A DNA stretch of 23,709 nucleotides. Source: a virus. How positions within the stretch are numbered: the stretch's first letter is position 1; the number at the start of each line of letters is the position of its first letter. The stretch covers positions 1-23,709 of the IMG/VR virus record IMGVR_UViG_3300010354_000667. One strand, written 5' to 3'. Positions 4,011-18,859 of this stretch are shown piece by piece. Both the position numbers and the translations under genes were made by a program. The notes beneath the pieces were generated by a model. It had not been told where the DNA came from. It worked only from the letters and a program-made list of their open reading frames with translations, and did not search any database.

Positions 4011-5005
4011 ACTTTCTTCCATTCGTTAAGTTTTAGTTTTGCTTCTAAACCATGATAGGTATTACATTCTACCATACGTTGTACATCTCGTCCAGCTAAT
4101 ACCATATCATTGATATCTTTTTCTTTAATGTTTGTTGGCCAGATAACTACTTTATCTCCGTGCTGTATGGTTTTAGCAACACGTTCGACGATTTGTTTGT
4201 TACGTGGTTCGTTGTCATAAACAAATGTACAATCAGGAAACTGTATCCTATCAAGTACAACGTCACTGCCACACATTGCAATGCTGTTATCAATGAACAA
4301 TGAATCAAACGGACCTTCGGTAACATAAACATTTTTAGTAGTATCTACACGATCTAAACCAAATATTTTTGGTTTAGATTCATCCAACATAATTGTAATA
4401 TATCTAATCTTTGCCTGTGGTGCCAAGGATCTTCCCTGATACCCAAACATTTTACCCTCTGTATCCTTAAGCGGTATAATTATTCTTGGACTGTCTTGCT
4501 TCAGATTAGGAAATATCTTGATCTGTGAATTAGTCCACTCTTTAAATTTGGGGCAATAGTAAAAGTAATCTAGGTTATTAATTTTTCTAGTTTCTAAATA
4601 CTCCCTCGCTGGGTGTGTAATATTTAGTTCCGAGATATTTTTCAAGTTTATCGAATTTTCATTTTCTTTGAAAAATTGTGGTTCCTGAAAATTAAAGGTG
4701 GGATTTGGAGTGTTAGATCCCTTACCCGTCAGTCCTTCTTTATATCTTTCTAGAACATATTGATCGTAGAGAATTTGATTTTGATCCTTTAAAAAATTTG
4801 TAAACGTTCTACCTACACCACAGTTATGACACTTAAAAACCAAGTCATTCTTGACTTTAAAAATATATCCTCTTGCCTTATCTTTTCGTTTCCTACTATC
4901 TCCACAATAAGGACAACGAAAATTATAAAGAGATTCTTTTTTCTTTGTAAATTTTTGTAGTTGAGGAGAGACTAGAGAAACATATTTTACATCAATAAAA
5001 CTCAT
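4007..5005 (-). CDS. gp61: DNA primase gp61
   Basis: A T4-type primase that makes RNA primers for lagging-strand synthesis with helicase gp41. The 332-aa protein has an N-terminal zinc ribbon (CPYCGDS, C31/C34, and CHNCG, C59/C62), then a catalytic region with a TOPRIM signature: VTEGPFDSLFIDN (the Glu after a strand) and FVYDNEP (an acidic metal-binding pair in D-N-E). The reading frame stays open 42 codons upstream, but those encode a Cys-rich shadow of the preceding gene. The ATG at 5005 overlaps the upstream stop as ATGA, so I use it. Its partner gp41 lies about 7 kb away in this window; here primase is grouped with nucleotide-metabolism genes. Confidence 0.9.
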   Translation of the reverse strand: MSFIDVKYVSLVSPQLQKFTKKKESLYNFRCPYCGDSRKRKDKARGYIFKVKNDLVFKCHNCGVGRTFTNFLKDQNQILYDQYVLERYKEGLTGKGSNTPNPTFNFQEPQFFKENENSINLKNISELNITHPAREYLETRKINNLDYFYYCPKFKEWTNSQIKIFPNLKQDSPRIIIPLKDTEGKMFGYQGRSLAPQAKIRYITIMLDESKPKIFGLDRVDTTKNVYVTEGPFDSLFIDNSIAMCGSDVVLDRIQFPDCTFVYDNEPRNKQIVERVAKTIQHGDKVVIWPTNIKEKDINDMVLAGRDVQRMVECNTYHGLEAKLKLNEWKKV

Positions 5006-5397
5006 TTTATAAGGTGGGTATTCGCTCCTCCTATGGTAGCACGTCCAGCGCCCACTGTCAATAGATTTCCAAAAAATGCTGCGGATCCAATAACCAGTGT
5101 GGCAGCAGCAACAACACCCATAGTATACCAACGAAACTTAGAAAGTTCTTCTATCTTTTTTTCAACTACAGATATTTTCTCATTCACTCCTCTAATTAAT
5201 TCTAAAATAGCAGCATCTGCTTTATCAACTTGTTCTAATCTATTTTCATGTCGTTCTAAAATGAGGGCAACTGATTGATTACCCTCACTTATTTTATCAA
5301 CGGCACGTTCAAGTTTGTCAAGCATCTCCTTGGAGAGATCTTCATATATTTGAAACTTCGCTTCTAATACTGAAAGGTCTTTCCCAAAGTTAAACAT
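5002..5397 (-). CDS. Coiled-coil protein with one C-terminal membrane helix
   Basis: A 131-aa protein that I cannot name. Residues 1-85 are a long charged helical region with heptad-like hydrophobics (LEAKFQIYEDLSKEMLDKL, then VEKKIEELSKF). A single hydrophobic segment follows (YTMGVVAAATLVIGSAAFF, about residues 91-109), then a short Gly/Ala-rich tail. There is no signal peptide. A coiled coil followed by one C-terminal membrane helix is the layout of XhlA-type holin-associated lysis proteins, so a lysis or membrane-anchor role is possible but inferred. The start has a good ribosome site (AAGGA, six bases before ATG). It lies between a Lys-rich protein and primase and overlaps primase by ATGA. 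Confidence 0.75.
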   Translation of the reverse strand: MFNFGKDLSVLEAKFQIYEDLSKEMLDKLERAVDKISEGNQSVALILERHENRLEQVDKADAAILELIRGVNEKISVVEKKIEELSKFRWYTMGVVAAATLVIGSAAFFGNLLTVGAGRATIGGANTHLIK

Positions 5398-5408
5398 GTC
5401 TATCCTTA

Positions 5409-6101
5409 TCAGACGTTTCTTACAGCAAACTCAAGAGCACTTTGGAATGTTACAGCATCTTTGTTTAACATATAACGATACTTATCTTTGTTCTCGTCAT
5501 CTAGTTGAGCATAAGCGGCAGCAATACGTTTAGCGGAAAAGTTATCTAGATTTTGTACACTTCCATCGCCAAATGTAATCTTGGCGAATTCAGTTTCTCC
5601 TCTTGGATTTAATTCCGATGTAGCAACTTGAATAGCAACTTCAAGGGCGTCCATTGTGTTTGTAGATTCAGTCATCATTTCACCTGTAGGTTCGTAAGAA
5701 TTTTTTTGTTGTACACGCTTCTGTTGATCAGAAGCTTTCTTTTTAAAATCAGCAAGACGGGCTTTCATAAGAACGTCCATCTCTCTGGTTTTATTCATCA
5801 TCTTCTTCTTAGCTTCATCACGCTTTTTCTGAAGATCTTTTTGGCGATTGAGCTTTTTCATTTGCCCAATCTGCTTTTGTGCTCTCTCGGTTTCCGAGGG
5901 AACCGCCTCCATAATAGTTTGTTCTAATTCTTCTTTCATTTTTTTACGTTTGGAAATACGAGAGATTAATTTACCCGACTTCTTTTTTTTATAAGCTCTA
6001 TTGGATCTTGTATTAACAAATACGAATGCTGGTGGCATAGACAAAGCAGCGCCGTTGCCTGCCATCATTTCATTTATATTAGGTTCAGTGCTTTTAGACA
6101 T
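5409..6101 (-). CDS. Hypothetical Lys-rich helical protein, 230 aa
   Basis: Not recognised. The N-terminal 30 residues are non-polar/Asn-rich, followed by very basic helix-forming sequence (residues 35-135, many K/R/Q/M; for example KKLNRQKDLQKKRDEAKKK). A distinct compact C-terminal domain follows (about 145-230: TMDALEVAIQVATSELNPRG, then FGDGSVQNLDNFSAKRIAAAYAQL). The basic middle could bind nucleic acid or act as an assembly linker. The start at 6101 overlaps the upstream gene by 28 bases and has only a weak ribosome site (AAGA); ATGs at 6068 or 6065 are alternatives. The neighbours suggest a late or virion-associated protein. Confidence 0.75.
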   Translation of the reverse strand: MSKSTEPNINEMMAGNGAALSMPPAFVFVNTRSNRAYKKKKSGKLISRISKRKKMKEELEQTIMEAVPSETERAQKQIGQMKKLNRQKDLQKKRDEAKKKMMNKTREMDVLMKARLADFKKKASDQQKRVQQKNSYEPTGEMMTESTNTMDALEVAIQVATSELNPRGETEFAKITFGDGSVQNLDNFSAKRIAAAYAQLDDENKDKYRYMLNKDAVTFQSALEFAVRNV

Positions 6102-7317: not shown

Positions 7318-7455
7318 TTATTTAGTTGTATGCTGATCTTTTGATTGACTCTTAATTGCCTTCTTAAGATATTTGGTATTCTTTTTAGTATTCACATCAT
7401 CCAAAGGTTTGTCAGGAATTTCAGGCATCACCTCTACGGTAGATGCCTCATTTAC
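7318..7455 (-). CDS. -1 frame extension of the EF-hand protein (frameshift product) or short separate ORF
   Basis: Forty-five sense codons and a TAA lie in the -1 frame directly after the slippery A AAA AAG at the end of the 270-aa gene. The extension reads VNEASTVEVMPEIPDKPLDD and then a Lys-rich helical part (NTKKNTKYLKKAIKSQSK). It fills most of a 160-base space that is otherwise empty in a genome where genes nearly always abut. An internal ATG at 7428 would give a 36-aa peptide, but its only SD-like bases sit too close and within a hairpin stem. A past indel splitting one gene is the other explanation. Confidence 0.45.
   Translation of the reverse strand, partial: VNEASTVEVMPEIPDKPLDDVNTKKNTKYLKKAIKSQSKDQHTTK
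7423..7448 (-). promoter_or_regulatory. Hairpin six bases downstream of the slippery heptamer
   Basis: On the minus strand AGGCATC pairs with GATGCCT (7 bp), and an inner ACC/GGT extends the stem past a one-base bulge, leaving a 5-base loop. No U-tract follows, so it is not a standard terminator. Its spacing from the heptamer suits a frameshift stimulator. Confidence 0.5.
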
Positions 7456-8264
7456 TTTTTTGTTTTTGATTTATTAATAATGGAAGTTACTTTTTTACGA
7501 CGAGCAGCAAGATACTTATCTGACTTATCATGATCACCATCATTATCAATATCTTTATCTTCTTTGCCAACAGGATCTAAAGCTTCTTTAACTGCTTTGT
7601 TCTTTGCTTTCCAAGCAGTAGCATAAGCGATACCCTTTTCTTTCTTGGTTACTCCACCTTCAGAATATCCTTTCTTGATGTGCTTCACCATACGCTCATA
7701 CTTAGCGCCTGGAGGTGCTTTCTCGTCAAGCATTAATTCACCGATTGGTTCATAACCTGCCTTGACACACTTATCTTTGCCACCTTCTGTACCAGCATAC
7801 TTGTAACCTTTCCAGCAAGCTTTGCCATCAGCACCTTGTTCTTTACCCTCGGCATTCTTTTTCTCAAAGACATAGTGAACACCTTCAACCATAACGTTGA
7901 AAGATTCTTTCATTTTTTCTTTCTTCTCTTCTGCCTTTCCTTCCTTGTGCTTCTTCTCTCCCTTCTCTTCTTTCTCTGGCTTCTCCCAAGCTTCTTTAGC
8001 AACTACGTTAGTGTACTTAATAGTAGCGCCATGTGATTGCTTGATTCCAGATCCAGTACGAAGATCTACAGCAGGATCAGCAGCATGAGCATTTGCTTTA
8101 GGATCTCTCTTAGCAGTAGTTTCCTTTTCTTTCTTTTCTAAAGTAGGAATACCTTCTTCCTTAACTACTTTTTTTCCAGAAATGTAAGCAGCAGTTGATT
8201 CAATCAATGCCTTTGAAAAATCATCATGATGACGAAGTTGAGTCGTTGGTTTTTGTCTTTCCAT
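7452..8264 (-). CDS. Charged modular virion-type protein with EF-hand calcium loop, 270 aa
   Basis: Not assigned to a named family, but its modules are visible. Residues 1-90 are polar. Residues 93-120 are a Lys/Glu low-complexity stretch (EKPEKEEKGEKKHKEGKAEE). A Gly/Lys-rich segment with two cysteines follows (ACWKGYKYAG ... DKC), then a helical module (YERMVKHIKKGYSEGG, EKGIAYATAWKAKNK) that I recall from several cyanophage proteins. Residues 238-249 (DIDNDGDHDKSD) form a complete EF-hand/dockerin loop with Asp at positions 1, 3, 5, 7, 9 and 12, predicting calcium binding. The start at 8264 lies inside the upstream gene with a distant ribosome site; an in-frame TAA lies just before it. It ends in the slippery sequence described separately. 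Confidence 0.75.
   Translation of the reverse strand: MERQKPTTQLRHHDDFSKALIESTAAYISGKKVVKEEGIPTLEKKEKETTAKRDPKANAHAADPAVDLRTGSGIKQSHGATIKYTNVVAKEAWEKPEKEEKGEKKHKEGKAEEKKEKMKESFNVMVEGVHYVFEKKNAEGKEQGADGKACWKGYKYAGTEGGKDKCVKAGYEPIGELMLDEKAPPGAKYERMVKHIKKGYSEGGVTKKEKGIAYATAWKAKNKAVKEALDPVGKEDKDIDNDGDHDKSDKYLAARRKKVTSIINKSKTKK
7455..7461 (-). promoter_or_regulatory. A AAA AAG slippery heptamer (candidate -1 frameshift site)
   Basis: The last codons of the 270-aa gene are ACA AAA AAG TAA, so the heptamer is in the correct phase for tandem -1 slippage, as at E. coli dnaX. The zero-frame stop codon follows at once. Confidence 0.5.
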
Positions 8265-8514
8265 TAGTAAAAAATATGCTTTCCTTTTCTTTATTTATGT
8301 TTTCTGTGATATTAACTTCTCTAATATCTTTTATCCAAGCACGGAACATCTTATCATCTTCCGTAATAGCAATCACATAATTAGTACCTGAACGATGAAT
8401 TCTACCTTTCTCTCCAGTAACAGATGACATAATATAATCTCCCTCAACAAATACATCTTTAGCACGATACTGCTGACGTATTGCTTGTTCTCTTAAAGTT
8501 CTAAAGTCTTTCAT
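8224..8514 (-). CDS. Small beta-rich conserved phage protein, 96 aa
   Basis: The N-terminal 20 residues are a charged helix (MKDFRTLREQAIRQQY). The core, about residues 21-70, is a strand-rich module: FVEGDYIMSSVTGEKGRIHR, then GTNYVIAITEDDKMFRAWIK. The G-D/S-V-T-G-E-K-G pattern resembles small SH3/KOW-like barrels, which is inference; I recall the module from cyanophage proteins of unknown role. The polar Ser/Thr/Lys tail from about residue 76 covers the start of the next gene and is probably unstructured. Its ATG overlaps the NMNAT-like gene stop as ATGA, so it is coupled to that gene. Confidence 0.75.
   Translation of the reverse strand: MKDFRTLREQAIRQQYRAKDVFVEGDYIMSSVTGEKGRIHRSGTNYVIAITEDDKMFRAWIKDIREVNITENINKEKESIFFTNGKTKTNDSTSSS
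8292..8298 (-). promoter_or_regulatory. Possible late promoter (CATAAATA) before the EF-hand gene
   Basis: Minus-strand CATAAATA lies 28 bases upstream of the ATG at 8264, inside the 3' end of the preceding gene. The motif is common by chance in AT-rich DNA; position is the only support. Confidence 0.3.
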
Positions 8515-11870: not shown

Positions 11871-11873
11871 AAA

Positions 11874-11958
11874 CGGAAGGGGTGGGATTCGAACCCACGG
11901 AAGCTTTCACTTCGCTGGTTTTCAAGACCAGAGCCATCAACCACTCGACCACCCTTCC
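11874..11958 (-). tRNA. tRNA-Ser (anticodon UGA)
   Basis: A full cloverleaf is visible on the minus strand. The acceptor arms GGAAGGG and CCCTTCC pair over 7 bp and are followed by discriminator G, as expected for serine. The anticodon arm is CTGGT-CTTGAAA-ACCAG, giving TGA. A long variable arm (GAAG/CTTC) identifies a class II tRNA, and the T arm is GTGGG-TTCGAAT-CCCAC. CCA is not encoded. The tRNA lies between mazG and the 499-aa gene and is followed at once by a terminator. Phage tRNAs are thought to supplement decoding of UCA/UCG codons when host and phage codon use differ. Confidence 0.97.
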
Positions 11959-11971
11959 AATATTTGATGGA

Positions 11972-18421: not shown

Positions 18422-18859
18422 TTATTCGGTAAGAAGTTGCTGCTTACCAGATCCAATATTGTAAGTTGTTTTCTTTTTTTCCTCTGGAATAATCTTCTCT
18501 AATGAGATCGTCAATAAACCATCCACATATTCTACAGAGGATACTCGTACATCGTCAGCGAGTTGCCATGAGTGATTAAAGGAACGTTTCGATAATCCTT
18601 TATGTACATACACTCGTTCAGAATCTCGTTTTTCAACTTTGGAGGCAACTCGGAGAATGTTTTGTTCAGTAGAGACTTCAATCTCTTCTGCTTTAAATCC
18701 TGCCAGAGCGACTTCGATTTCGTAATTAGATGCATCGTGTTTGATTAGATTGTAGGGTGGATAACTGGTGTTATGTCCAGACATTGCCTCTAGACGGTTA
18801 AATACATCGTCTAAACCTACTGAAAATGGGGAATAGATATCCCAGGTGTATTTAGTCAT
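18422..18859 (-). CDS. hsp20: Small heat shock protein Hsp20 (alpha-crystallin family)
   Basis: An ATP-independent chaperone that holds unfolding proteins; in cyanophages its client is unknown, with capsid assembly or thylakoid/photosystem protection proposed. The 145-aa protein has a variable N-terminus, then the alpha-crystallin domain: NYEIEVALAGFKAEEIEVST, LRVASKVEKRDSERVYVHKG, SFNHSWQLADDVRV and YVDGLLTISLEKIIPEE, the usual strand set with the G-L-L-T-I signature. The tail lacks a clear IxI motif. It forms a single-gene unit between two terminators and has a strong AAGGAG six bases before ATG. That site can pair with an upstream CTCGCTT, so translation may be heat-responsive. Confidence 0.94.
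   Translation of the reverse strand: MTKYTWDIYSPFSVGLDDVFNRLEAMSGHNTSYPPYNLIKHDASNYEIEVALAGFKAEEIEVSTEQNILRVASKVEKRDSERVYVHKGLSKRSFNHSWQLADDVRVSSVEYVDGLLTISLEKIIPEEKKKTTYNIGSGKQQLLTE

Follow-up and report, generated by a model that had tools for sequence, protein, structure and literature searches.

A gene of T4-like cyanophages that encodes an EF-hand-like protein very probably ends in a programmed -1 ribosomal frameshift site of the dnaX type, as judged from comparison of its sequence across phages and metagenomic contigs. It is apparently an unreported and strongly conserved recoding event in many T4-like cyanophage genomes, including that of S-PM2. These phages belong to the most abundant marine viruses, and S-PM2 is among the longest-studied isolates. 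No frameshift in this gene family or in any T4-like cyanophage gene was found described in the open-access literature, subscription journals being outside the scope of the search; the mechanism, dnaX-type frameshifting, is known, whereas no description of the gene family or of its exchangeable tail modules seems to exist in the open literature covered. Existing records split the locus into two genes (S-PM2p142/143, Syn1_163/164) or, in MED4-213, do not annotate the tail, and the tail and the main gene are placed in different PHROG families. The signal apparently went unnoticed because the tail is either listed in databases as a small gene of its own or missing from them.

The window analysed here is a 23.7-kb virus contig with T4-like cyanophage genes, and the features of the locus are collected in Table 1. 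A Pfam search with the 270-aa main protein gave nothing above the cut-off, a sequence search of the PDB gave no match, and the fold of its AlphaFold model (pLDDT 49, pTM 0.17) is too poor to inform function. The 96-aa gene upstream served as an independent anchor for the locus in other phages. Many records and PHROG 4808 label this neighbor 'ribonucleotide reductase alpha subunit', 'NrdB' or 'cytidyltransferase'; these labels are probably a propagated annotation error because a protein of 96 residues falls far short of either enzyme, and the window has its large ribonucleotide-reductase-like genes at other positions. Downstream of the locus is an Ig-like gene, and the neighborhood also holds T4-GC 537, annotated as a virion structural protein, and T4-GC 190, which was detected in S-SM1 virions (PMC3037559).

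Table 1. Features at and around the predicted frameshift site in the window
Feature	Position	Strand	Description and basis
Zero-frame gene	8264..7452	minus	ORF of 270 aa; phrog_4359, E 2.5e-56
EF-hand-like DxDNDG loop			near the C-terminus of the zero-frame gene, which is of the T4-GC 842/1080 kind; 27 homologues aligned
Slippery heptamer A AAA AAG	7461..7455	minus	in slip phase, abuts the zero-frame stop; sequence
Zero-frame stop TAA	7454..7452	minus	sequence; the -1 codon spanning the stop is GTA, not a start codon
Spacer, heptamer to hairpin	7454..7449	minus	6 nt
3' hairpin, putative stimulator	7448..7423	minus	10 bp with one bulged T; folding and family-wide position peak
Outer stem of the hairpin	7448..7442 with 7429..7423	minus	AGGCATC paired with GATGCCT, extended inward by ACC / GGT
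-1 frame extension	7455..7318	minus	45 codons open from 7455 to 7321, stop TAA at 7320..7318; VEVMP-type tail, phrog_11250, E 2.9e-10
Upstream neighbor gene	8224..8514	minus	96 aa; T4-GC 534 kind
tRNA-Ser, anticodon TGA	11873-11959	minus	

The last codons of the 270-aa gene are ACA AAA AAG TAA. An earlier note on this DNA had pointed out a dnaX-type heptamer in phase just before the stop, a 7-bp hairpin with a 3-bp inner extension six bases beyond it, and a -1 frame open for 45 codons that would give a 315-aa product next to the 270-aa form. The coordinates of the heptamer and of both reading frames hold, and the hairpin was confirmed by folding, with a minimum free energy of -16.6 kcal/mol and a z-score of -3.35. 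The sequence of the -1 extension is VNEASTVEVMPEIPDKPLDDVNTKKNTKYLKKAIKSQSKDQHTTK, and ATG, GTG and TTG are all absent from it ahead of VEVMP. The A run at the site is A6, and a Shine-Dalgarno-like element is absent in the window and its clade. The same note had called the gap filled by the -1 frame unusually large, which did not stand: the intergenic distance is ~160 nt, yet other gaps of the window measure 193 and 264 nt. By itself the window sequence is modest evidence and suggestive only, because such a gap is unexceptional and in-phase A AAA AAG occurs within three other genes of the window (5002-5397, 5409-6101 and 18422-18859, minus strand). The arrangement is, however, conserved in homologues and is therefore far more than chance.

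Homologues of the zero-frame gene from protein searches and hits of a DNA pattern scan, the latter biased towards the heptamer, made up 97 distinct site contexts. Past the zero-frame stop, 95 of them encode a VEVMP-type tail in the -1 frame (89 with the in-phase heptamer and six with ATGA), and the remaining two are unrelated ORFs. Adding isolates and loci found through the neighbor gene, the latter free of that bias, brought the set to 130 contexts, or 75 non-redundant sites at less than 85% identity. In-phase A AAA AAG is present at or one codon before the stop at 69 of these 75, abutting the stop at 59 and one codon earlier at ten; the other six have an ATGA stop-start and no heptamer. For comparison, A AAA AAG encodes just 5 of the remaining 782 Lys-Lys pairs of these ORFs. 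Among the 61 loci found by the neighbor gene alone with enough downstream sequence, some of which are near-identical contigs, 60 carry the heptamer in phase at the gene end.

The -1 frame itself evolves as a coding sequence. From the stop through VEVMP, changes in 51 independent pairs are distributed 39/21/97 over the three -1-frame codon positions, with a dN/dS of ~0.13 by a simple count rather than a likelihood model. This pattern indicates that the -1 frame is under purifying selection, including the codons upstream of the internal Met of VEVMP. No ATG, GTG or TTG is found in the -1 frame ahead of VEVMP at 32 of the 69 heptamer sites, the window among them. At 20 of the 69 a stop codon immediately 5' of the heptamer closes the -1 frame, which can then be entered only at the heptamer. 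The tails belong to different families: that of S-PM2 matches phrog_30268 and DUF3008 (PF11450, E 6.7e-6), with a predicted fusion across the site of EETEKK-VKKPVIEVMPEIDDG, and the tail of the Prochlorococcus phage type matches phrog_32143.

Sliding-window folding of 74 sites gave a single peak at +5/6 from the heptamer with a mean z-score of -1.9, against about -0.2 in the flanks, and this peak is absent in the ATGA class. The commonest spacing places the first stem base 6-7 nt past the heptamer (40 of 69 sites), and a distance of 5-8 nt is described for 3' structures of such signals (PMC4066793). Unrelated stems occupy the same position in L065 and L077, in L296 and in the relocated L321 type, and the hairpin thus varies with the coding sequence while its place is kept. 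In a 20-sequence hairpin subfamily, compensatory changes occur at four pairs, and the covariation score was exceeded by none of 500 shuffles; the 11-sequence subfamily of the window shows weak covariation, with too few changes to inform. Upstream of the heptamer, GGAG or better is found at 60 of 69 sites, most often at 11 nt, compared with a background of 4.4%; in prokaryotic signals a 5' Shine-Dalgarno-like stimulator is only sometimes present (PMC4066793). The earlier note had proposed a test for joint conservation of heptamer, hairpin and -1 frame with few non-synonymous changes, and the heptamer counts, the folding peak and the dN/dS all show such conservation. Synechococcus WH7803, the host given in the S-CAM1 and S-PM2 records though possibly not that of the window phage, has 43 tRNAs with a single tRNA-Lys, anticodon UUU. 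A single tRNA-Lys(UUU), as in E. coli, is a condition discussed for slippage on A AAA AAG (PMC5009743).

We considered whether the tail could be a separate small protein made by termination-reinitiation, either from a GTG or ATG overlapping the stop (GTGA or ATGA) or from the internal GTG or ATG of VEVM. A GTGA overlap, present at 31 of the 69 heptamer sites, could permit reinitiation too; at the six non-redundant ATGA sites the tail ORF starts with MKSFKQF, and five isolates are arranged likewise; and the tail is annotated as its own gene in S-PM2, Syn1 and S-CAM1. However, at the sites where a start codon is missing ahead of VEVMP, the codons upstream of the internal Met are nevertheless selected, and reinitiation as the sole mechanism is ruled out there. 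The Shine-Dalgarno-like element that is 11 nt from the heptamer is ~17 nt from the GTG and therefore too far for initiation, and reinitiation leaves the invariant heptamer and the hairpin unexplained. We therefore regard it as very improbable. Transcriptional slippage, in which the A run would give rise to mRNAs lacking one base or carrying two extra, is extremely improbable. The site is indeed an A run of 6-8 nt, but such a run is short for slippage and does not grow (A7 at 62, A6 at six and A8 at one of 69 sites), and the final G, the phase, the position of the 3' hairpin and the 5' Shine-Dalgarno-like element are all constrained although slippage needs none of them.

The window comes from a metagenome collection, so we also weighed a sequencing error, an indel or a decayed gene, with the two frames really being one or the tail being non-functional. 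The earlier note had likewise advised excluding a homopolymer error. The frame break recurs in 13 of 21 isolate genomes and in all but one of the neighbor-anchored contigs, and the -1 frame is conserved as protein; error and pseudogene are thereby rejected, and we give them negligible probability. Zero-frame readthrough was rejected as well, since the VEVMP motif is in frame or in the +1 frame in none of the 97 contexts. Homologues without the heptamer, which the earlier note had counted against frameshifting, do exist, but in these the tail has an ATGA stop-start or is a gene by itself, which supports it as a real coding unit.

Under -1 frameshifting, ribosomes translating the EF-hand-like gene would reach ACA AAA AAG while the hairpin lies 6 nt further on; in most relatives, GGAG ~11 nt upstream would add a Shine-Dalgarno-like stimulation. 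In the paused ribosome, the two tRNA-Lys(UUU) would slip back by one base to pair with AAA AAA, after which translation would proceed in the -1 frame as GTA AAT GAG. Two forms of the protein are thus predicted: ribosomes that stop at TAA would release the 270-aa form, and a fixed fraction would go on to make the 315-aa form, whose C-terminus is the VEVMP tail. DUF3008, a DUF6321-like domain or a Cys/His motif may be found in the frameshift-only part of related phages, and the signal would therefore be a dosage switch by which some of the copies receive an additional module.

The 13 heptamer-bearing isolates are S-PM2, Syn1, S-RIM44, S-RIM32, S-CAM1, S-CAM3, S-H9-2, Sf-CH11, Sf-FP1, Sf-FR1, P-HM1, P-HM2 and MED4-213. 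ATGA is found in S-RSM4, S-WAM2, S-CAM4, ACG-2014e and S-H9-1, where the tail protein starts with MKTF(K/R)Q(L/F)RE(E/D). At the level of individual loci, ATGA with no heptamer and a tail N-terminus of the MK(S/T/P)F type was seen in L033, L034, L074, L075, L080, L118, L256, L464-L466 and L469. Tail starts of the MKTFKQF or MK(S/T/P)F type presumably resemble the capsid-targeting N-termini of T4 internal proteins. A standalone second gene in one frame, starting with ML(S/T)FK.L(A/S)EKK, occurs in L264, L265 and L470 (S-CAM8, S-RIM12 and Syn9). The Prochlorococcus-type fusion reads FRSISEKK-V...CNHTTEGVECPVHG across the join, and the protein of S-CAM8, with SFKALAEKK...CIHTKKGLDCPVHG in a single frame, aligns over that frameshift join (E 4e-8, a single pair). 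The EKK codons of S-CAM8, GAA AAG AAA, are not slippery.

Across these genomes, the same modules are found on either side of the site. The DUF6321-like module is in the zero frame in the window and frameshift-only in L019, L037, S-H9-2 and Sf-CH11; DUF3008 is frameshift-only in S-PM2 and in the zero frame in L028 and L040; and the CWKGY domain is frameshift-only in L321 and in the zero frame in other phages. Within the gene, the site is relocated in L321, L324, L325, L332, L334 and L335, where it reads GCA/GGA AAA AAG TAG; these contigs have another hairpin, which lies 6 nt downstream, and a -1 tail of 94-167 aa that includes the CWKGY domain. In L326 the cassette is kept and the EF-hand part is gone. 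A tentative reading, to which we give not quite even weight, is that the recoding cassette persists while protein modules (DUF6321-like, DUF3008, the CWKGY domain and the Cys/His motif) switch between the always-made and the frameshift-only parts, that the site was relocated at least once, that the phage would thereby set how many copies of exchangeable domains are present on a virion-associated protein, and that some lineages swapped to a stop-start overlap or a standalone gene. This modular exchange of tails is the unusual part of the system.

As to the product, our best guess, possible but rather doubtful, associates it with the virion or head, the C-terminally extended version being a minor form; it is proposed because of the nearby T4-GC 190, Ig-like gene and T4-GC 537 and the presumed likeness of the MKTFKQF starts to capsid-targeting N-termini. 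A protein made in two forms, with exchangeable tails and encoded next to virion genes, would allow a direct test of the role of each form. The locus also offers a natural experiment in which frameshifting, a stop-start overlap and a separate gene can be compared at one place, and a dnaX-like signal set for studies of frameshifting on cyanobacterial ribosomes.

The cyanophage signal shares with E. coli dnaX the heptamer A AAA AAG, a 3' stem-loop at 5-8 nt and a single tRNA-Lys(UUU), the last checked in one host (WH7803); most relatives also share the Shine-Dalgarno-like sequence ~10 nt upstream, which the clade of the window lacks. In dnaX, the -1 frame ends quickly and gives the shorter gamma subunit, whereas here the shift would add a tail and give the longer product, the zero-frame stop abuts the heptamer, and the gene is unrelated. 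In T7 gene 10A/10B, a minor capsid form, the longer of two, is produced by a -1 frameshift near the gene end. The cyanophage gene would likewise give a shorter and a longer version of its protein, the latter through a -1 shift close to the gene end, but with another heptamer, another protein, exchangeable tail modules and a virion location that is conjectural. Like the tail assembly chaperones (lambda gpG/gpGT, HK97 and others), the locus has a conserved frameshift joining an ORF to an overlapping downstream ORF; in contrast to the lambda type, no tail tape-measure gene is adjacent, the proteins are unrelated, and the heptamer differs from that of lambda. Transposase frameshifts of IS elements also use A AAA AAG with stimulators of the stem-loop type (PMC4066793), whereas the cyanophage site is not a mobile element.
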